IMG/VR virus record: IMGVR_UViG_3300044655_001082 | Coordinates: 1 to 31,449 of that record | Length of the DNA: 31,449 nt | Strand: one strand, 5' to 3' | Source of the DNA: a virus | Shown here: positions 2 to 25,900 of the stretch, in pieces | Layout: every line of letters starts with the position of its first letter | How positions within the stretch are numbered: the stretch's first letter is position 1 | Notes under the pieces: model-generated | The model's input: only the letters and a program-made list of their open reading frames with translations | The model's database searches: none | Told to the model about the DNA's origin: nothing | Program-made: the position numbers and the translations under genes

Positions 2-133
2 GAGAATGAACAAACAGCTGAACCTTTGAGTTATTTAGATAAACTTAGAGCTAGAGAACTTAAAGATACTCCATTGAAACAAGAGGATGATGAAAATGAC
101 GTACAAAATCGAGAAGAAGATAACGGGTTGTAA
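2..133 (+). CDS. C-terminal end of an unidentified protein (partial)
   Basis: An open frame enters from the left edge and stops at TAA 131-133, giving 43 residues. The peptide is charged and acidic towards its end, with a run rich in Glu, Asp and Asn, and has no recognisable motif. It overlaps the start of the Rep_3 gene by about 40 bases, so the two genes are probably co-transcribed and translationally coupled. A partition or accessory replication protein would fit the position, but nothing in the residues shows it. Confidence 0.5.
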   Translation, partial: ENEQTAEPLSYLDKLRARELKDTPLKQEDDENDVQNREEDNGL

Positions 134-845
134 GGAGAAGTTAGGTAATGGAGTTATCTGTGAAGCTAATCAGATAATAGAAAGTTATCATCAACTTAAT
201 GAAACTGAAATCAAGCTCTTGCAACTCTGTCTAGCTCCTATCTATCAAGTTGACGCTATAGATAGGGATAAGTACTATGAAGTTGAGCTAGATAAATATG
301 CTGAAATGTATGGTCTAAGTAAGAATGCAGCTTATAATACTCTTGTAGATGCTTGCAAAACCTTAATGACTAGAACTATAACTCTTAAAACAACTTTACT
401 AGACTCTGAAGCTCCAGAGAAAAGTAAAACTATTGTACATTGGGTACATTCTTGCAGGTATAACTCTGAAAATTCAACTGTAGAGATTAAATGGCATGAC
501 TCAATCCTACATCTACTCTGCCAGTTTAGTAAAGAGATACCTTACTCCAAGTATTGCCTCGATGATGTCAGAAAGTTAAAGAGTATTCATGCTATAAGGT
601 TATATAGAATTCTAAATAGATGGGCAAATCTAAAATCTAAAAAATATACTATAGAAGAGTTCAAAGAAGTAATGGGATTTAACGAAATGGAGTATCAGAC
701 TTTTAAAAATCTAAGAAGTAAGGTAATAGACCCAGCAGTAGAAGCTATAAACTTATATACAAACTTATTTACTTCAGTAAGTTATAAAGTAAGCGGTAAC
801 AGAAAGACTCATGTTATCTTTGAGATAGCTAAGAAAGCTAGTTAG
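96..845 (+). CDS. Rep_3-family replication initiator protein
   Basis: About 249 residues with the two winged-helix arrangement of Rep_3 (RepB/RepE/Pi-like) plasmid initiators. The first half carries an N-I-E-S-Y-H-type segment leading into a helix-rich domain. The second half has the family pattern of LYRILNRWANLKSKKYTIEE, then a G-F-N segment, then the DPAVEAINLYTNLFTSVSYK stretch and a final beta strand ending in VIFEIAKK. Such proteins bind iterons and open an origin. The frame also has ATGs at 87 and 90, but AGAGG at 82-86 is correctly spaced only for the ATG at 96. It converges on the minus-strand genes. I saw no iterons in this window, so the origin may lie to the left. Phage replication initiators of this family also exist, so it does not prove a plasmid state. 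Confidence 0.8.
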   Translation: MTYKIEKKITGCKEKLGNGVICEANQIIESYHQLNETEIKLLQLCLAPIYQVDAIDRDKYYEVELDKYAEMYGLSKNAAYNTLVDACKTLMTRTITLKTTLLDSEAPEKSKTIVHWVHSCRYNSENSTVEIKWHDSILHLLCQFSKEIPYSKYCLDDVRKLKSIHAIRLYRILNRWANLKSKKYTIEEFKEVMGFNEMEYQTFKNLRSKVIDPAVEAINLYTNLFTSVSYKVSGNRKTHVIFEIAKKAS

Positions 846-3101: not shown

Positions 3102-6100
3102 TATTTTTTCACCGTTCTAGCTGAAAGTAAAGAAGCTTTATAATCTACGTTATACACTAAATATCCTGTACCAGCTGTATAGTAAATCTGTCTCTGAATC
3201 TTAATACCTGCTGGCATAGAGGAGACCTTAACTAAGAATCTAGTTCTATTAAGATAAGTATCAGAAAAAGACGCTAAAACAAGATTAGTACTAGAATCTA
3301 TGACTCTAAGACCGTAAGACACTGAAGAACCTCCTACCATAGCTGAAGTTGTTCCTGTATCTGGAAATTGTAAATCTAATATAGTAGGATAACCTACAGC
3401 ATTTGCTGGTGTGCTGTATGTATGTATATTAGTCCAAGTAGTAGCTGAAGTAGACTTAGTTACCGAGACAGAGTTAATAGCAATTACATTTTCTACTGTA
3501 ACTGCTTCGCCTTGTATATTTAAAGTTCCCACAGCTAAACTGCCAATCTGAGCTTGTCCAATAGCTGCACTAGCTATAAAAGTACTTACATTAGAGCTAT
3601 CAATCTGAGGAATTACTTTAACCCAAACTCCTCCAGTTTTAATCCACATTAACTTAGCAGTTGTATCAAAATAAGTATCGCCATTAATAGCTAAAGCTGA
3701 AACATTAGTTCCAGAAATAGGTACACCAGTTCCAGTGTAGGCTGTGCCTGCTCCTGCTGGACCTTGAGGTCCTGTAGCTCCATTTGTACCGTTAGTTCCA
3801 TTGGTGCCATCTGTACCGTTAACACCTGCTTTAGCTCTAGTTATATTAAGAACTTTACTTAAAGTAGCCCCACTATAAACTGCACTTAAAGTAAATACAG
3901 CAGTATCCGCGTTCATAGTGCCAGCTATACTGTAAGCTCCTGCCGCTGTAATAGTACAAGTAAGACCGCTGTTAGCTCCAGATGTTGAAAAAGTACATAT
4001 AGAAGTTACATCAGTAGTTCCGCTAAATACTTTAAAGTTCCCAGCTGCAGCAGCATAACTAGATACTGTACCATTACTAGCAGCAGGAAGTGTAGAAGTT
4101 TCGTTAGTCAGATAGCCATTAACTGCATTTACACCATTAGCTCCATTTGAGCCATTAGTTCCGTTAGTTCCATTAGCTCCTGGACTTCCAGCTGCCCCAT
4201 TAGCTCCATTAGAACCGTCATACAACTTTAAGATAGTTATCTCGTCATAAACACCACCAGCAGAACATCTAATTCTTATAGAATTACCTGTAAATGCAGT
4301 GTTATTATAGGCTAGAGCGTAAGTTTGGTTAGTAGTAGTACCACTAAGCGCAACCCAAGCAGCTCCACTCCAATACTCCCAAGAGTAAGTAGTCAGTCCG
4401 CCAAACAAAGAAGCAGTTAAAGTTATTGAATTAACTGTTGGTGTACTAGAACCTGCTGTAAACTTAAATGCTTGTTCTCCATTAACTACTACATAAGCCG
4501 CAGCAGTACCATCTTTAGCTAAAAGACTTACAGCCGCCCATTCAGAAGTTGTTATTACGTCTGTAGTTCCAGTACCTAACGCAGTAGCTGTAGTTACCCA
4601 TCTATAAGCTCCAGTTGTAGGTAAACTTCTTTTCCAAGGGTCTGGCTGTAATCCTGTAGATGTTACCAAAGCTCCGTTAGAAAAAGTATAAGTTAAGTCT
4701 GTACTAGGAGGTATAGGAGCAGCTGAAGTTGTTGTAGTTTGATATAGGTAGATAGTAGCTGTATTTATACCATTAGCCCCATTAACCCCATTTACCCCTG
4801 CTGTACCATTTTGAGCTAAAATAACTGGACTTGCCCATTCATTAGCTTGAATAGTATCTGTAGGAGTTCCTGCAGAAGCAGTAGCGGCACTAACATATAG
4901 AGGGTCAGTACCAGTAGGTAATAAATATGACCAACTATTATCTAAACCAGTAACTATCCCAGAATTAAAAGTATAAGTTACAGGTTGTGTAGGTAAAGCT
5001 GGAGGATTTGCTCCCGCAAGTCTTCTATAAATATAAACAGTAGCAGTGGTTAAACCTGCAGGTCCAGTTCCACCTTTAATAGTATATAATGTCCAGTAAG
5101 AGTTAGAAGTTGTAGGATATACTGGTGTTGTTACGCTACCACCAGAGGTATGTACAGTCACGCAAGACCAACCATACCCAAGTGCGTCCATAACTATATC
5201 ACCAACTACATAATTATACCCACTAGTCCAATTACCCAAGAATACATTTCGAGTAGCTCCTACTTGAGGAACTCCAGGACCTTTAGCATTGTTCCAATTA
5301 AAGTTACCACCTGCAAAGACTACATTACCATTAGTATCATAAAGTCCTAAAGAGCCGTAAGTAACAATATCTCCAGCTTTATCTATTTTCCAACCTTTAA
5401 AAGTAGTTGGGTTATAGTTAGTACTCATAATAGTATCTTTAATAGCTGCGTTAGTAATAACAGCATTAGCTATTTGAGCAGTATTTGTAATCACCGCATT
5501 TTGAGTATCTAAAAGACTGGCAACAATAGAACCAGCTTTAATCTCTGAAGCACCTACAGTTCCAGCTATAATCTGCGAGCCAGAAATGAAAGCATTACCA
5601 TCTCCGCCTTTAATATTACTAGAAGAACCTCCAGTATATGTAGCAATAGGATAGCTCCCAACACTCACAGCTATAAGTAAAGTAGTAGTTACTTGTAAGG
5701 TGGTTTGAGATACATTAGGATTAAAGTAAACATAAACATAACCTGTAGTCCAAGTTGTAGTTCCTGCCGCAATTGTATAAGTAAAACTTCCATTTCGTAT
5801 AATTGTCCCTGCAGTCCAGTTAAGCTTGTTAGGAGTTACAGAATCAACTGTAAATTGTAAACCAGTCTTAGTCCAAGTAGTCGCATCTGCGCTTAAAGGA
5901 GTAGAGTTCTGCTCTCCAGAAATGTTAAGTCCAGTTTTGCCAAAGTTATCATAAGCTGCGAGAGCGTAGTAGTAAGTTCCACCTGTAGGAACACTTAAAG
6001 TTATATAAGTATCTGCTCCGTCATAGACCAAAGTAGAAGCATTTTTAACGAAGTTAGCCGTTAAACTTCTCCAAACTTGATAACCTTTTACATCTACATC

Positions 6101-16035: not shown

Positions 16036-16064
16036 AAAAAGAGGAGGAGCTATTAACTCCTCCT
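16036..16064 (-). terminator. Intrinsic terminator after the tail tube gene
   Basis: On the minus strand AGGAGGAG, a 7-base loop and CTCCTCCT form a perfect 8-bp stem (16042-16049 with 16057-16064). It is followed by C and five T (16036-16040). It lies in the 68-base gap between V and G, and probably causes partial termination because the G, H and tip genes need to be read from upstream. Confidence 0.8.
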
Positions 16065-16079
16065 TGAAGCGCACAAATC

Positions 16080-17363
16080 TTATTGGTAGAAAATAAATGA
16101 ACTACCAGTATTACGGAAGGTTACGTCTCTACCTAAATAGGTAGCAATTTTACCTTGTTTTGTATTAGCTAATTGTAGTTTATCCCACATATAGGTAATA
16201 CCTGTACCAGCAACTAAAGCACCGTTACTATCTTTCTTACCAAACTGTAATACAGCTGAGAAGAAGCTACCAGCTTTAGTGTCTGGTAAGAATACACCAG
16301 AAGCACCAGCTTGGTCTTCTAACATAGATACTGATACGTCAGTTGGAGTACCACCTTTAGCGAAACCCGTATCGCAACCAGTCATATATCTTTGGAAGTC
16401 GTAACCAAAGAAGTTAGCTGCATTTAAAGTTGAGAAACAGAATGTAGATGGAGCTACATCTGAAACTTTAATAACTGCAGTACCAGAAGCAGCTGAAGTA
16501 TTACCTTTTACATAGTAAATAGCTTTAGTTGGGCTTACAAAGTATAAAGTGTATTCGCCATTTAAAGCCGCTGGAGTTAATCCAGAGATTTTAACTCTTC
16601 TAATTTGCCCAGTAGCTACTCCAGAAGGTGCTGAAGAGAAGTTAACAGTTACTTGAGCTGAGCCAGCAGTTACTGTACTAACTGTACCGCCTAAAGATGC
16701 TGTAAAAGTATCTGAAGGAGAGATTTCTACAAGGTAAGCAGAAGTAATTGTAGAGTAAAGTACTGAAGGAGCTACTCGTGTAGTTTGTTTGCCAAAATCA
16801 GCAACTTGTTTAGCTACTGGAGTAGGGTCATCAGCATTACCTTTCAAAGAGAATTTCAAAGAAGGTACTTCACCTACAGTTGCAGTTACGTCTACAGTTC
16901 CGCGTAAATCCCAGAACTTATATAACTTGTCGTTAGTTGCATCGTCTGGAGTTGATTTACGGAAATCAGCTGTACCGTAGTCTGGTGAGTCAGTTGCGTT
17001 ATCTACAAATACTTGCTTAGTAGTTGCGTCAACAATAACATTACCACCACAAACTTGATATAGTTTCCAAAGACTTGCGTCATTAGGAACGATAGCAGTA
17101 GTCATATCAGACAATACTTGTTGGAAAGTATCAATCTGTAAGTCAATATATGTATCTTTTTCATAAGTGTACTCGTCACGAGATAGAGAGTCACCTAAGT
17201 ATTGGTAAGAACCTGTATCACGAGTAGGGTCTCCCATAATAGCTGTACAGGCAATAGCAGTTGTAGAACCTAAACTACCAGTAGCTACTTTATTTGCATT
17301 ACCAGAACCACCAGTTTGCAACGCAAAGTAAATAGCTTGGTTTTTTTCATGAAATTTAGCCAT
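16080..17363 (-). CDS. V: Major tail tube protein V
   Basis: 427 residues, with AGGAGC 8 bases before the ATG. The N-terminal 200 residues carry the tube fold, including the DPTRDTGSYQYLGDSLSRDEYTYEKD segment typical of this family. About 100 residues at positions 205-305 look like an inserted beta-sandwich with NGEYTLYFVSPTKAIYYVKG, a pattern often seen in decoration modules of tube proteins. The ending returns to the tube fold (GKIATYLGRDVTFRNTGSSFIFYQ). Lambda V is about 246 residues with a C-terminal Ig-like domain, so this version is larger and has the extra domain inside. It polymerises around the tape measure. A terminator follows, consistent with high expression. Confidence 0.88.
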   Translation of the reverse strand: MAKFHEKNQAIYFALQTGGSGNANKVATGSLGSTTAIACTAIMGDPTRDTGSYQYLGDSLSRDEYTYEKDTYIDLQIDTFQQVLSDMTTAIVPNDASLWKLYQVCGGNVIVDATTKQVFVDNATDSPDYGTADFRKSTPDDATNDKLYKFWDLRGTVDVTATVGEVPSLKFSLKGNADDPTPVAKQVADFGKQTTRVAPSVLYSTITSAYLVEISPSDTFTASLGGTVSTVTAGSAQVTVNFSSAPSGVATGQIRRVKISGLTPAALNGEYTLYFVSPTKAIYYVKGNTSAASGTAVIKVSDVAPSTFCFSTLNAANFFGYDFQRYMTGCDTGFAKGGTPTDVSVSMLEDQAGASGVFLPDTKAGSFFSAVLQFGKKDSNGALVAGTGITYMWDKLQLANTKQGKIATYLGRDVTFRNTGSSFIFYQ

Positions 17364-18930: not shown

Positions 18931-20076
18931 TTACATTACTTTCCAAGCAACTGTTGAGTTGATTTTGGTGTGCATGAATAAAGGAGCTGATTGACCTTGT
19001 AACCAAGGAGTACCAAACTCATCTTCTACCCATGAATTCCAGAACATTTCAGTAGCTACAAAGTCAGCCGCACCATGTTGGATAGCACCATAAGCTTGTA
19101 CACCATAAGTAGCAGCTGGAACCATAACTACCCAACCGTTAGGAATGAACTTAGTTAAGCTTGTAGATGCACTTGCAGTACCTTGATAAGCTGCATTGTA
19201 TGTCCAGATAGGAATACCAGCAATAGTACCACGAAGTTTCAAACCTTCTTTAGATTGTTGACGTGGTAACAAGTCAACTAAGAAAGAAGAAGTAGTTGTG
19301 ATTAAAGTTGAAATCACAGTTGCAAAACTTGCGTCTTTAGTTACTTCTTGCCAAGCATCATCAGACATATAGATTTTGCTGATTGGTTCCCAAGCTGCAT
19401 CTAACATTTGTTGTAAGTCAGCAATAGGAGATACAGCTTTAGTACCACCTGTAGAACCCCAAGCACGTTTACCTGCGCCACCGTTATCAGTAATAACTGG
19501 TAAAGTAGAACCTGTAGGTAAGTTAACTGCAGTTGCAGTCAAGTTTGCACGGTTAGCTTTACCACCGTTTAAAGTAGCAGCGTCAGTAGCAATATTTGGT
19601 TCTAAATCTACTAATACAGAAGGATGTCTTTCTGAAGTAGCAACATAAGAACCGTAAAGTAAGATTTGTGATGCAATCCATTCAAGTAAACGGTCACGTT
19701 TAGCTTGCATTAACATCATGTTATCTTGCAATGCAGAAGCAATACGTCCAGCATTAGAAGTAGGAACAGAAATCTGCTCACCAACTCTTCTTGCACGAAT
19801 GTTTCTGAAGTCAACTGTAGTTTTATCTTTCCAGTAAGCAGGATAGAATACTTTAGTTTGGTAGCCACGAGCAACAGTTGGTTTAGCTTGTGCATCTGGA
19901 GCTACAAAGATACCAATACGCAAGTCTGGAGAAACTTTATCTAAGTTAATAGTTTCAGTTTCAAAAGGTTGCATAACACCAAAGTTAGATTGTAACTCGG
20001 TAGGAGTTGGGTATTCACGGTCAGTAAGTGTACCGTAAATCTCATTTAATTCATAAGGAGTAGCAAAACGAGCCAT
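18931..20076 (-). CDS. E: Major capsid protein E
   Basis: 381 residues (lambda E: 341). It shows the lambda E family features: an N-terminal arm (MARFATPYELNEIYGTLTDRE), the FVAPDAQAKP-type segment followed by AYWKDKTTVDFRNIRARRVGEQI (about 78-105), the central domain with IYMSDDAWQEVTKD (about 235-250), and the C-terminal FWNSWVEDEFGTPWLQGQSAPL (about 345-366). It forms the icosahedral shell with HK97 fold. GAGGT lies before the ATG, and it follows D by two bases. The codon choice near this gene is slightly richer in G and C at third positions (for example GGT and GCA), as expected for a highly expressed gene. Confidence 0.93.
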   Translation of the reverse strand: MARFATPYELNEIYGTLTDREYPTPTELQSNFGVMQPFETETINLDKVSPDLRIGIFVAPDAQAKPTVARGYQTKVFYPAYWKDKTTVDFRNIRARRVGEQISVPTSNAGRIASALQDNMMLMQAKRDRLLEWIASQILLYGSYVATSERHPSVLVDLEPNIATDAATLNGGKANRANLTATAVNLPTGSTLPVITDNGGAGKRAWGSTGGTKAVSPIADLQQMLDAAWEPISKIYMSDDAWQEVTKDASFATVISTLITTTSSFLVDLLPRQQSKEGLKLRGTIAGIPIWTYNAAYQGTASASTSLTKFIPNGWVVMVPAATYGVQAYGAIQHGAADFVATEMFWNSWVEDEFGTPWLQGQSAPLFMHTKINSTVAWKVM

Positions 20077-20078
20077 TA

Positions 20079-20435
20079 TTATACCTCACCAGTATCTAAG
20101 AATGTTAAGGCAATCATACTACCTTCAACAAGTTTTTGTTTTAACAAGTTAGTGTTGATTGCTGAAGGAAATACAAGTTGGTCAGCAAAGAAGTCACCAG
20201 CGATATAAGCTTGAGCAGGTTGGTCAGCTGAAGTAGCATCTACAGCGTTCAAAAGAATACCAGCTACTTTATTAACACCAGCGTGTACTTTCCATTTACC
20301 AGCTGTATCTGACTCTAATAGAGTGTATTGAGCTAGGTTTTGTCCTAAAAGTAAAGTACCAGTTTTAACTACTACGTCTGGGTCTGAACCAGCAATAAGT
20401 CTTTTAGGTGTATATGTAAAAGTTTCAGCAGCCAT
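20079..20435 (-). CDS. D: Head decoration protein D
   Basis: 118 residues (lambda D: 110). The strands KRLIAGSDPDVVVKTGTLLLG, QYTLLESDTAGKWKVHAG and KVAGILLNAVDAT, and the AYIAGDFFADQLVFP segment, match the lambda D / HDPD family. Trimers of this protein stabilise the expanded capsid. Its ATG shares a base with the stop of C/scaffold (TAATG, 20433-20437), so it is translationally coupled to the scaffold. Confidence 0.92.
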   Translation of the reverse strand: MAAETFTYTPKRLIAGSDPDVVVKTGTLLLGQNLAQYTLLESDTAGKWKVHAGVNKVAGILLNAVDATSADQPAQAYIAGDFFADQLVFPSAINTNLLKQKLVEGSMIALTFLDTGEV

Positions 20436-20836
20436 TATTTAACTCCTTTAGATAGAGAGTGAGCAGCGGCAACAATGTCTTTAATAGAGTAAGAAGTACC
20501 TTCAATCTCTACTTTAGTTTCAGTTGCATCAGTTGTTAAGTTTTTAGAAACAGTAGCTTCTACTGGAGCAGCTGTGTCGATTGCAGTTGAAGTACCGATA
20601 GCATCGGCAATAGCAGTAAAGATGTCAACTGCATCTTCTTTAGCTGTACCAGCTGAGATACGTTTAATAACTTGTTCAGCTGTAATTTTCAAAGACTGAC
20701 CTGCGCCTAAGATGTCAATACATCTTGCACGTTCATCAGCAATAGCTTTTGCTACAGTGTTAGTAACACTAGCTTGCAGTGTAGCTAACTCCGTATCTTT
20801 AGCACTAAGTTGAGCTTTCAACTCTTCTAGTGTCAT
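20435..20836 (-). CDS. Nu3: Internal scaffold protein (Nu3-like), nested in C
   Basis: An in-frame ATG at 20834-20836 within C is preceded by CGAGGTG (SD at 20842-20847), a better ribosome site than most genes in the window. The 133-residue product begins MTLEELKAQLSAKDTELATL, an amphipathic helix. It continues as acidic and Ala-rich helix and ends SIKDIVAAAHSLSKGVK. Lambda makes Nu3 from the 3' end of C in the same way. The internal start is inferred from the SD and from this parallel. Confidence 0.75.
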   Translation of the reverse strand: MTLEELKAQLSAKDTELATLQASVTNTVAKAIADERARCIDILGAGQSLKITAEQVIKRISAGTAKEDAVDIFTAIADAIGTSTAIDTAAPVEATVSKNLTTDATETKVEIEGTSYSIKDIVAAAHSLSKGVK

Positions 20837-21676
20837 AACATCACCTCGTTTAGTTGTTGAATTTAAATTTAAATTAATTACTTCATCCATAGAGGAAACA
20901 ATTCCATCTATAAGACCTAACTCTAGTGCCTTATTACCTAAGAAAGCATCAGCTTTCATACTAACAATAGACTCTAAGGTTAATTGTGGGCGGTTCTTCG
21001 CCACTTCTGCATTAAAGAGACTGTCTAGTTCAGCTAACATAGCCGAGTACTTATCAATAACAGCAGAAGATATTTGTTCGTGAGGATTGTATAAAGCTTT
21101 ATCCTCTTTACTACGCAAGATTGTATAGTTATAGCCGTCTTGTTTGTCTGCTTCAGTAACATCTACTAGGGACATGATGACACCAATAGAACCTACTGTT
21201 GAGCTTTCAGTTGCATATACTGTTTGAGCCGCTGAACCGATTGCATAAGCAGCTGAAGTCATAGAACCATCAGTAAATGCTACAGTTTCTACCCCGTAAA
21301 CGGATGGTAAAGAAGCTATATAGCTTGAAAGACCAAAAAGACCAGATACTTCACCGCCAGGGCTGTCAATGTAGAATAAAACCTTATCTGCGCCTTCAGC
21401 TACTGCTTCTTCTACTCTACTTTTAATACCTGCATAGGAAGTAAAGCCAGATTCACCAGCTCCTCCTTTAGAAACTAAACTATCAAACACATTAATAACT
21501 GCAGTCGAGTTTGAACTAGTTACTTGTTTTTCTGAAGGACTAGCTACTCCAGTATCTAAAGCTTGACCAGCTAAAAGCTTTAAGCTGACATTACTAGAGA
21601 TAATTTCTAACTTATCTTGACTGATAGCCAGAGGAGTGTTAATTAATCTTGTTAAAAGTCTATGATGTTTGTTCAT
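20435..21676 (-). CDS. C: Capsid maturation protease C (S49/ClpP-like) with scaffold domain
   Basis: 413 residues from the ATG at 21674-21676, preceded by AAGGTGG. An upstream in-frame TTG at 21730 lies inside the promoter region and is rejected. The protease domain (about 55-265) has DSPGG (104-108), the candidate nucleophile Ser141 in MTSAAY, GSIGVI (162-167) and Lys190 in RSKEDK as the likely general base. This is the SppA/S49 pattern used by lambda C. The remainder (about 281-413) is the helical scaffold, also made separately from an internal start. The enzyme digests the scaffold during prohead maturation. It is the first gene after the promoter at 21702-21730. Confidence 0.92.
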   Translation of the reverse strand: MNKHHRLLTRLINTPLAISQDKLEIISSNVSLKLLAGQALDTGVASPSEKQVTSSNSTAVINVFDSLVSKGGAGESGFTSYAGIKSRVEEAVAEGADKVLFYIDSPGGEVSGLFGLSSYIASLPSVYGVETVAFTDGSMTSAAYAIGSAAQTVYATESSTVGSIGVIMSLVDVTEADKQDGYNYTILRSKEDKALYNPHEQISSAVIDKYSAMLAELDSLFNAEVAKNRPQLTLESIVSMKADAFLGNKALELGLIDGIVSSMDEVINLNLNSTTKRGDVMTLEELKAQLSAKDTELATLQASVTNTVAKAIADERARCIDILGAGQSLKITAEQVIKRISAGTAKEDAVDIFTAIADAIGTSTAIDTAAPVEATVSKNLTTDATETKVEIEGTSYSIKDIVAAAHSLSKGVK

Positions 21677-21693
21677 ATACCCACCTTGAAAAT

Positions 21694-21738
21694 GATAGTC
21701 CTTTATACTCTTTCTACAAGGAAAAGTCAAGGACTATC
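21694..21738 (-). promoter_or_regulatory. Promoter for the capsid genes framed by a perfect inverted repeat
   Basis: On the minus strand TTGACT (21725-21730) and TATAAA (21702-21707) are exactly 17 bases apart, a near-consensus sigma70 promoter. The arms GATAGTCCTT (21694-21703) and AAGGACTATC (21729-21738) are perfect inverted copies overlapping the -10 and -35. They look like operator half-sites, or a stem. Expected start of transcription is near 21695, about 20 bases before the C start codon. Confidence 0.7.
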
Positions 21739-21753
21739 TGAATTTATTTACAA

Positions 21754-23199
21754 TTACATACCAGCAGAATTAGGATTTGCTTTTATGTTCTTAGATTGAG
21801 TTGTATCTTTTACAACAGGTTCAAAGCTAACTCCACTTTGTTGTTGAAGCTTTTTATCCTCTACAATTTCTTCAACAGTTAAGTTTCTTTCTTCGAGTTT
21901 ACTTTCCCAAGTTGCAAATCCACTCTGAACCTCAAGTAAATCAGCTTGAGCATCTTTCAAATCATTAACTCCATATTTTCTTGGGTACTGGAAGGTAGGA
22001 GTTAAGTTAGCAAAGCTTTTATTACTATAAATTGAAGCAAGTTCTCTAAACCGATTGCATAAAGGTTGTAAACCTAAGTTTATAATGTAAAACTTATACA
22101 TGAATTCTGCTCTTGTCTTCATATCAATAGCTACTTGCTGAAGAGCTGAGAAACTAATACCTGTAAGGTCTCCAGTAAGAACCTCATAAGTAAGCCCAGC
22201 TGTTTGGGCAATCTTATGTAGTTCAGCTTTGATTAGTTCGGGTAAGTTAGCTCCAATATCTGTACCTTGATAGAAAGCTATATCTTCACCTTTATTTAGG
22301 TATTGGACGCCCCCTCCAGAAGCTTGAGTAACCACTCTTCGCTGACCTGTAGACTTATCAATATCATTTGGGTCAATACTATTAAGAGCAGAACCGACAG
22401 AAACAGCGGCAGAAGGATTAGTATTGCGAACGACCCAACTAATAGCTTGGGCAGCTTTTTGTTTAGCAACTGTAGCATCGGTAAGGTCGTCCAATTCGTA
22501 TAAAGGTAAAAGAATAGGGGTAAGTGCAGGAATACCTCTCCACTGCCCTGGTCTATCTCGGATAAATAGATGTAAAACCTCGTCTGCAGGTACTTCAACT
22601 TTCTCAACAGAGTAAAGATTAAACAAGTTAAAGTTAGGAGTTCTTTTACTAAAGTAGTAAACACTTGGTTTACTATTCTCGAACTTAATACCATTACGGG
22701 TAGTTTGTGGAACTCCATTAGTAAAGTTAGGGTCAAGATACTCGGCTTCAATGTTTTGTAGAACTAGTGGGATAGGATGACCAGCTCTCTTCTTAATCAA
22801 CATTCGGCAAAGAGCTTCTCCAGACTCAAACATAGCTCCATTCCAAGCTTCTTGGGTATTGTCTAAAGTCCCATAACCATCTAAGTTAGGGTCAGCTGCA
22901 AAAGTATCCCAAAGAGCTTGCATCTTTTTATTAACTTTACCTTTATCGTCTTTCCATTTCACGGAAATTGCATTAAGGTTAATAAGGTTCTTTGTTTTAG
23001 CTGTCTTTGCCCAACCATTATTTCTAACAGCATGATGACTTCTTTGCCATAAAAGATTAAGTTCTCTAGCTGCAAGTAGGTCAGATTCTCCAGTAACTAA
23101 ACCTTTCTGCTCAAGTCTATAGTTAGTAACAGCACCATCAAAAGCTTGTTGAGTAGCTCTTGAGTAGTAGAATTCTTCTGAATCATAAGGTAAGGACAT
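21754..23199 (-). CDS. B: Portal protein B
   Basis: 481 residues (lambda B: 533). The lambda portal family pattern is clear: AARELNLLWQRSHHAVRNNGWAK near residues 44-66, the GYGTLDNTQEAW region, then LHLFIRDRPGQWRGIPALTPILLPLYELDDLTDATVAKQKAA near 205-245, and ISFSALQQVAIDMKTRAEF near 345-363. The ring forms the DNA entry vertex and docks terminase. It follows W by two bases and has a weak SD. A promoter for the next gene begins right after its stop. Confidence 0.93.
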   Translation of the reverse strand: MSLPYDSEEFYYSRATQQAFDGAVTNYRLEQKGLVTGESDLLAARELNLLWQRSHHAVRNNGWAKTAKTKNLINLNAISVKWKDDKGKVNKKMQALWDTFAADPNLDGYGTLDNTQEAWNGAMFESGEALCRMLIKKRAGHPIPLVLQNIEAEYLDPNFTNGVPQTTRNGIKFENSKPSVYYFSKRTPNFNLFNLYSVEKVEVPADEVLHLFIRDRPGQWRGIPALTPILLPLYELDDLTDATVAKQKAAQAISWVVRNTNPSAAVSVGSALNSIDPNDIDKSTGQRRVVTQASGGGVQYLNKGEDIAFYQGTDIGANLPELIKAELHKIAQTAGLTYEVLTGDLTGISFSALQQVAIDMKTRAEFMYKFYIINLGLQPLCNRFRELASIYSNKSFANLTPTFQYPRKYGVNDLKDAQADLLEVQSGFATWESKLEERNLTVEEIVEDKKLQQQSGVSFEPVVKDTTQSKNIKANPNSAGM

Positions 23200-23471: not shown

Positions 23472-25395
23472 TAAAATCTCCAGTTTCAGTTGTAACGTGT
23501 AGGTACTGTTCTAAAGCAGCCCAGTGGAAGTTGGTGTAGTTTCTAATTTGTATAGCATAAGCAGCATGAAGAGCCATCTTTTCACAGTCAATAGCTTCTT
23601 TATGTTTACCAGAGATTAGCTTATAGCCAGCTTTAGTTGTATCTGTTTCAAATGTTTTTCTACAGGAGAGAATACCTTCTTCGTAACCTCCATACATAGT
23701 TTCGCAATGATAGTTTCTATCTCGATTGCCTTTAAGGTTAAACCTTCTGAGAACTTCCTCATGTGCGCGGTAAGCTCCCATAGGAAAGACATTTACACCC
23801 ATAGTTTGAGCTAAAGTCTTTCTTTCTTGAGTAGCTGAACCTACTTCCATAGTGTTAGGTTCATTAAATATCTCATAGTTGTTGAACTTCAACTCTCCAA
23901 TACCTTTACAAGCAAAGATATGTTGATGCTTTAAACTCATCTCTGAGACCCATCTATACACTAGTTCAGCTGTTGCACCATCACCAGAGTCAATAGAAGC
24001 AGCTGAGATAGTTAAGAACTTGCCTTTACCAGCTCCATGAGTCCATTTCTGAAGAATGTAATCAGATAATCTTTCCCAAACTGAATCACTATAGTCAAGT
24101 ACATCTCCAAAGATTTCAGTCCAGTTAACTAGCCAAGAGTTGCCATTTCTTCCCCAAGCTCTAGTTACTATAGCAAAACGATTATGCTGAACGTCAATAC
24201 CTGTGGTTAGGATTAAACCTTCATAAGGAACTACCATTTCTGGGTAATTCTGTCTTCTAGCTTTCATTTCATCTATACTTAGTCCAGCATTTAGAGGAAC
24301 ATAAGCTTCACCTTTAGAGTTATTAGTAAAACTCTTCATCAAACCTTCATGCCCATTGTCATATGCTTTCTGAGCTTTAAGTTTCTGTTTAGCTAGATTA
24401 ACAAGACTTGAAGCTTCAAAGGAACTTAACAATTCATTGAAAGCGAATCCATAAGTATCAGATACGCTAGGATTAGAGCTAACCCAACCCATATTATGAT
24501 AGTCGAGAGCAGCAATAACATTTCGTTTCTTATCGTCATTGTTCCAGATTCCTAAGCAAAAGGGACATTCATAGTAAGCTGTTTCGGGATTATATATCCC
24601 ATAGAACTCATCTATTCTTCTTTCTTGCCACTCGTCACACTTTAAGTTATCAAAACTTAGAGAATGAAACTCATTGCAAAGGTGACAAGGAACTAGGTAA
24701 ACCATCTTATTACTTTGTTCATAAGCTGAATCTACTTGACTAAAGTCTTTATCTGTAGGAGTTCCAGCATATATAAGTTTACTGTCAGAGAATGACTTCA
24801 TTCTTTGTTTAAGAATAGCCATCCCATCTCCTTGATTGTTAACGTCTTTCTTAACACCATCTGGTTCTTCGACTACTACATAAGGTATTACTGAGGACTT
24901 TCCATCTTCAGCTGTACCTGCATTTGCAAGAACTAAGAAACCTCCATCATAAGGAATATGCTTGTGAGATACTTTAGCTAAACTTCCAATCTTTTCTCTA
25001 AGTACTGGAGTATGTTTAATGTAAGGAACTAACTTTTCCTTGTAGAACTTCTGCGCTGAAGCTGCTCTAGGAAAAGCTATCATTATGTTTCTTGGGTCTA
25101 GGTCAATAGTTCGCCCTATCCAGTTATTAATAGTTTCTGTCCAAGCAATCTGAGCTGACTTCTTACCTACAATAACTCCTATCTCTGGGTTGTCTAAACA
25201 CTCCATTACATAAAGCATCCAAGGAGTTTCCATACAGTTCATCTTTCCTGGACGTGAGGATACGTCTGAGGTTAAGAACCTATTAGCTTCTGCCCACTCT
25301 CTTGTAGACATCCTGTTAGGTTTTTTAAATAACTGTAGAGCTTTACCTATAAAGAGACGTTCTCCCCAACTAGTTTCTAAGTTAAGTTCAGCCAT
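23464..25395 (-). CDS. A: Terminase large subunit A
   Basis: 643 residues, almost the same as lambda A (641). It has a Walker A-like VGKKSAQIAWTE (about 76-87), Walker B VVVEEPDG (about 173-180), two zinc-type pairs (Cys237-x-x-Cys240 and Cys277-x-x-Cys280), a nuclease motif TTGIDVQHNRFAI with Asp401, and a second acidic motif AASIDSGDG with Asp469. This is the GpA/PF05876 type, which pumps DNA and cuts the concatemer. The ATG at 25393-25395 has AAGGAG upstream; the in-frame TTG at 25404 is rejected. It overlaps the HNH gene by eight bases. Confidence 0.95.
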   Translation of the reverse strand: MAELNLETSWGERLFIGKALQLFKKPNRMSTREWAEANRFLTSDVSSRPGKMNCMETPWMLYVMECLDNPEIGVIVGKKSAQIAWTETINNWIGRTIDLDPRNIMIAFPRAASAQKFYKEKLVPYIKHTPVLREKIGSLAKVSHKHIPYDGGFLVLANAGTAEDGKSSVIPYVVVEEPDGVKKDVNNQGDGMAILKQRMKSFSDSKLIYAGTPTDKDFSQVDSAYEQSNKMVYLVPCHLCNEFHSLSFDNLKCDEWQERRIDEFYGIYNPETAYYECPFCLGIWNNDDKKRNVIAALDYHNMGWVSSNPSVSDTYGFAFNELLSSFEASSLVNLAKQKLKAQKAYDNGHEGLMKSFTNNSKGEAYVPLNAGLSIDEMKARRQNYPEMVVPYEGLILTTGIDVQHNRFAIVTRAWGRNGNSWLVNWTEIFGDVLDYSDSVWERLSDYILQKWTHGAGKGKFLTISAASIDSGDGATAELVYRWVSEMSLKHQHIFACKGIGELKFNNYEIFNEPNTMEVGSATQERKTLAQTMGVNVFPMGAYRAHEEVLRRFNLKGNRDRNYHCETMYGGYEEGILSCRKTFETDTTKAGYKLISGKHKEAIDCEKMALHAAYAIQIRNYTNFHWAALEQYLHVTTETGDFNG

Positions 25396-25900
25396 AGCAA
25401 GCAAACTCCTTATGGTGTTCAGTTCTCATGTCTGCTAGCCATTTAACCGCAGTTTGTAAAGCTTCTTCCTTAGATGAAAATTTACTAATGGTAAAACTTT
25501 TCTGAAATCTTTGTTTATCTACAGCTAATCTAGCAATGTAAGAGTTGTATCTCCAAGACCAAAGAATACCTTTATGTCCAGATTCTCCAATAGCTGTAGT
25601 ACTTCTATTAGCATTATTTTCAGCTGAAGTACATTCTCTTAGATTCTCTAATCTGTTGTCAGTTTTTACACCATTTTTATGGTCTAGTTGTTTAGGTAGA
25701 TAGCCATACTCATATAACCATGCCATTCTATGACCTTGATATTTCTGCCTATCTATTACAATAGCTATATACCCAGTAGGAGTTGTATGTTTGATAATAT
25801 CTCCAGCTTTAGCTCTTTTGCCTACATCTATTCTTCTAGTAAATATACCAGTAGTTTTATCGTAATAAAATAGCTCTTTTAAATCTGCTTGAGTAATCAT
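25388..25900 (-). CDS. HNH homing endonuclease with AP2-like DNA-binding domain
   Basis: 170 residues. The HNH core lies at about 57-98: HRMAWLYEYG, then QLDHKNGVKTDNRLENLREC with Asp73-His74, Asn82 and Asn86, and Asn95 in AENN. An AP2-type domain follows at about 105-165 (ESGHKGILWSWRYNSYIARL and KSFTISKFSSKEEALQTAVKWL). This is the common layout of free-standing phage HNH enzymes that cut alleles lacking the gene. It sits between the terminase subunits with a 4-base ATGA overlap with terS and an 8-base overlap with A, so it is fully integrated into the operon. An HNH acting in packaging is possible, but the AP2 domain favours a homing enzyme. Confidence 0.9.
   Translation of the reverse strand: MITQADLKELFYYDKTTGIFTRRIDVGKRAKAGDIIKHTTPTGYIAIVIDRQKYQGHRMAWLYEYGYLPKQLDHKNGVKTDNRLENLRECTSAENNANRSTTAIGESGHKGILWSWRYNSYIARLAVDKQRFQKSFTISKFSSKEEALQTAVKWLADMRTEHHKEFACYG

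Follow-up and report, generated by a model that had tools for sequence, protein, structure and literature searches.

A conserved promoter-like sequence between the portal and protease genes of an uncultured lambda-type phage, enclosed by a putative RNA stem in one clade

The window, a stretch of 31,449 nucleotides of viral DNA (positions 1 to 31,449 of IMG/VR record IMGVR_UViG_3300044655_001082), carries a sigma70-like promoter sequence within a perfect inverted repeat between its portal and protease genes. In the joint reading proposed here, which is considered fairly probable, this host-type promoter and a downstream terminator delimit a separate capsid transcription unit, to which the clade of the window has added a stem, most likely one that acts in read-through mRNA.

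The window has a lambda-type head module on its minus strand, in the order TerL, a small gene, portal, S49 protease, gpD-like decoration protein and gpE-like capsid protein. The portal/protease gap extends from the portal stop (21754) to the protease ATG (21676), 77 nt on the minus strand, and contains GATAGTCCTTGACT-N17-TATAAAGGACTATC and GATAGTCCTTGACTTTTCCTTGTAGAAAGAGTATAAAGGACTATC. The arms of the repeat (21694-21703 and 21729-21738) are perfect complements over 10 bp, separated by 25 nt and with centres 35 bp apart, and each promoter hexamer shares 2 nt with one arm. This arrangement around TTGACT-17-TATAAA, first described in an earlier note on this DNA, is confirmed in the sequence. The hexamers are TTGACA-like and TATAAT-like, and their spacer of 17 nt falls within the 16-18 nt of sigma70-type promoters; the match to the consensus is 10/12, and the TATAAA -10 is without the conserved final T. 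The features of the gap and its neighbours are as follows:

21754..23199, minus strand: portal gene (PF05136), the upstream neighbour
21729..21738, minus strand: stem 5' arm, GATAGTCCTT, whose changes match the 3' arm in three groups
21725..21730, minus strand (read 21730-21725): -35 hexamer TTGACT, its TTGAC conserved in close and distant relatives
21707..21727, minus strand: inner helix ACUUUU/AAGAGU and loop, from the predicted fold, one pair changed on both sides
21702..21707, minus strand (read 21707-21702): -10 hexamer TATAAA, spacer 17, identical in close relatives and L092, with GATAAT or TATGAT in this position in distant ones
21694..21703, minus strand: stem 3' arm, AAGGACTATC, whose changes match the 5' arm in three groups
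21694..21696, minus strand: predicted transcript start within the 3' arm, 6-8 nt downstream of the -10
21680..21687, minus strand: AAGGTGGG, the probable ribosome site of the protease
20435..21676, minus strand: S49 head maturation protease (PF01343, phrog_53)

Neither the 10-bp repeat alone nor the 10/12 promoter alone is exceptional, and the case therefore rests on comparison with relatives. The window contains 4 perfect repeats of at least 10 bp with a loop of at most 40 nt, against 2.3 in Markov shuffles. A sigma70 matrix places the promoter of the element 11th among those in the window, and sites this good occur elsewhere about once per 3-9 kb. For seven related gaps taken one by one, a promoter of at least 10/12 at spacer 17 has p ≤0.017. 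In all close relatives, the 47-nt hairpin folds with a z-score of -4.5 to -6.5, and the element had no match to a known RNA family in Rfam. A terminator at this position was rejected; the 25-nt loop is followed by AUUUUC, the combination of GC-rich stem, short loop and U-run that marks an intrinsic terminator is not present, and the terminator scan did not report the element. An element common to unrelated phages was likewise rejected, given that among 50 viral stretches with the exact core, full arms were found only in relatives of the window.

The close relatives, all of them metagenomic contigs, are 17 in number and were obtained from a portal scan (portal identity 85-98%); they fall into three groups. 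TTGAC, the length of the 17-nt spacer and TATAAAGG are identical across all 17, and the arms differ between groups in step: AGTCC/GGACT in the window and L002, AACCC/GGGTT in the L003 group, and AGCCC/GGGCT in the L011 group. Among the eight distinct rows, 92% of cells are paired (38-55% in slid controls), and two-sided changes are seen in three pairs, one-sided changes in none. The paired changes represent about three events; no G-U intermediates were seen in the outer stem of these rows. The outermost stem pair is broken in L014, and the L011 group does not preserve the register of the inner helix. Identity at fourfold sites of the portal and protease genes is just 51-60% when the window is compared with the L011 group, and the element has therefore been kept against a strongly diverged background. 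By our own arithmetic, which assumes one random change per arm in each lineage, a matched pair in both of two lineages would arise by chance roughly 1 time in 200 to 1 in 900. This comparison indicates maintained pairing through two-sided changes, as is expected of a structured RNA, with few independent events and with DNA-level causes possible.

More distant relatives, found by a protease profile scan, are AT-rich phages with 43-57% identity and gaps of 60-76 nt. Four of these lineages have a promoter in the gap, TTGACA-17-GATAAT in L126, TTGACT-17-GATAAT in both L128 and L147, and TTGACA-17-TATGAT in L130, and when each gap is shuffled, 0 to 1.7% of the shuffles attain such a score with a spacer of 17. 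The window's clade and the four distant lineages thus have in common TTGAC[A/T], 17 nt and a -10 hexamer, with 23-29 nt from the end of the -10 to the protease ATG, at protease identities down to 43%, while the remainder of the gap differs between them. Both hexamers align in a multiple alignment with no gaps in between. The promoter match is 10-11/12 in six related gaps and just 8/12 in L092 (protease 60%), which keeps TATAAAGG and has a poor -35 (TTGCAT, p 0.26) and no stem. L092 carries an exact insertion of an M15 peptidase (lysin-like) gene (4131-4556) between its portal and protease genes; the insertion lies upstream of the promoter. Portal and protease overlap or abut, and the gap is absent, in GC-rich relatives (e.g., L133-L145) and in annotated phages and phage-plasmids; in the annotated relatives WO, pHm21 and a Halomonas plasmid the two genes overlap or sit 2 bp apart.

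Among the relatives compared, the inverted repeat is present only in the clade of the window. Arms flanking both hexamers were not found in L126, L128, L130 or L147; in the last of these, an unrelated 8-bp repeat overlaps the -35 alone. Since the promoter occurs in relatives without the stem, it is the older feature, and the stem was probably added later, in one clade, rather than lost in the others.

Beyond the protease gene, the bracketed region comprises:

20079..20435, minus strand: gpD-like head decoration protein (PF02924, phrog_49)
18931..20076, minus strand: gpE-like major capsid protein (PF03864, phrog_29)
16080..17363, minus strand: major tail-tube protein (427 aa), by predicted fold
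16042..16064, minus strand: intrinsic terminator that closes the unit, from the terminator scan, with one in the same place in relatives

No family match was found for the 427-aa protein, and its predicted fold (mean pLDDT 70), which matches the DT57C, P74-26 and T5 tail tubes (E 1e-6 to 1e-7), identifies it as a tail tube. The terminator sits 5.6 kb downstream of the promoter. A hairpin terminator follows the tail-tube gene in most lineages, its position kept and its sequence different, although in L152 none was found after the tube gene. Promoter and terminator together bracket the protease, decoration protein, capsid, neck and tail-tube genes, and the decoration, capsid and tube genes, which encode high-copy virion proteins, are thus enclosed; with the exception of L152, this layout is conserved in relatives. 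Hence the suggestion in the earlier note that an extra promoter expresses the protease, D and E independently of the distant late promoter is well supported at the level of sequence, by a promoter conserved in divergent relatives and by the conserved terminator downstream. In L150 (5803-5861), a promoter that matches the consensus at 12/12 (TTGACA-17-TATAAT) comes immediately after the terminator behind the tail-tube gene, and the late region of that phage therefore appears to be divided into units.

The proposed working of the element is as follows. The internal, host-type promoter would start transcription just upstream of the protease gene and, with the terminator after the tube gene, would give the proteins needed in most copies per virion (decoration protein, major capsid and tail tube) a transcription unit of their own, in which the protease and neck proteins are included. 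In the clade of the window, the promoter would be surrounded by a stem that has 10 bp and, in addition, the inner helix. Because promoter-born transcripts are predicted to begin inside the 3' arm, formation of this stem would be limited to transcripts that come through from the terminase and portal genes. There, just upstream of the ribosome site of the protease, it would most likely serve as a processing, stabilising or insulating hairpin. Pairing of the 3' arm with the ribosome site was considered and rejected, as in the window it is weak and consists mainly of G-U pairs, and promoter-born transcripts lack it. A more specific proposal, that one 45-bp element has two roles, serving the capsid unit as a DNA promoter and marking upstream-derived messages as an RNA stem, is put forward tentatively. 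If true, two mRNA populations with the same capsid genes would be distinguished by their 5' structure and could be processed or translated differently.

The earlier note had described the promoter as operator-bearing. In an operator reading, a phage or host regulator would bind the half-sites flanking the -35 and -10 and control the promoter. Operators are often symmetric sites at promoters, both hexamers are overlapped by the arms, close phages can differ in specificity, and in the distant L126 the promoter spacer itself is a palindrome (CCTATAA-A-TTATAGG, 3944-3972) that could be an operator in that relative. A repressor should normally have additional sites, yet a search of six genomes found the half-site only as the two arms of the element in each, with near-matches at chance level and no copy at other regulated promoters of the phage. 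Where the arms vary, they always do so together, as pairing demands but an operator that tolerates variation would not; the 35-bp spacing corresponds to 3.3 turns, so that the half-sites would lie on different faces; the main divergent promoters are without such a conserved repeat; and the arms are absent from distant relatives, where the promoter stands without them. An operator is therefore unlikely, and the matched arm changes and restriction of the half-site to this element favour base pairing, in line with the alternative of the earlier note, a stem in read-through RNA. Two related candidates were also rejected: the same repeat at the divergent main promoters, where no conserved repeat occurs, and an iteron or Rep_3 operator, as no iterons were seen near rep in the window and the half-site is not repeated.

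Somewhat less likely still is that the promoter is real and the repeat functionless, the arms being kept matched by template switching between them during replication. Homogenisation of the arms of short inverted repeats by this process is documented (PMC8604942) and would give exactly matched changes, and relatives manage without the repeat. On the other hand, the orientation of the spacer is constant in all relatives, and a pair within the imperfect inner helix has also changed on both sides. It is highly improbable that there is no promoter and that TTGAC and TATAAA, which overlap the stem and its internal loop in the close clade, are conserved only as parts of an RNA stem-loop, since stemless relatives keep the promoter, the spacer of 17 and an equal distance to the ATG, and a conserved terminator ends the unit.

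With regard to the genome as a whole, the window contains a Rep_3 plasmid initiator gene (87-842, plus strand), and its phage is therefore probably a phage-plasmid. No relatives were found in bacterial genomes, and no DNA match among phages. A hairpin between the converging rep gene and late-gene end (854-900; 21-nt arms, 86% complementary, 5-nt loop) is the strongest fold of the late strand and probably a two-way terminator. An HNH endonuclease gene upstream of terL (25391-25900) is missing from that place in IMGVR 3300042882_000356 (35,318 bp). The latter record has an exact 127-bp terminal inverted repeat (L075:1-127 and L076:17293-17419) that includes the start of a Rep_3 gene and is either an assembly effect or a real terminal structure.

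In gene order and protein families, the window is the same as the head operon of lambda (B, C, Nu3, D, E). The late genes of lambda are read from one distant antiterminated promoter; the window, in contrast, has a portal/protease gap that carries a promoter. Processing hairpins of the RNase III type in phage late messages have an intergenic stem, interrupted by an internal loop, beside a promoter. The element would resemble these hairpins in its predicted stem shape, and differs in that the promoter hexamers lie in the stem. Literature searches for promoters inside late operons yielded little. In T7-like phages, a local promoter and terminator flank the capsid gene (LUZ100, PMC10134795), and the likeness to T7 and LUZ100 lies in the placing of highly expressed virion genes of the late region directly between a promoter and a terminator. 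In T7-like phages, however, the promoter is specific for the phage polymerase and the unit surrounds the capsid gene, whereas the window has a host-type promoter and a unit from protease to tail tube; a promoter inside a stem, as in the one clade here, is a further difference. These comparisons indicate a rewiring of a lambda-like head module in uncultured phages, in which bracketed units, with a promoter and terminator of their own, have replaced a single long late operon, a solution known from T7-like phages for a capsid protein needed in excess. The clade-specific stem around the promoter is a modest case, open to experiment, in which DNA and RNA signals overlap.
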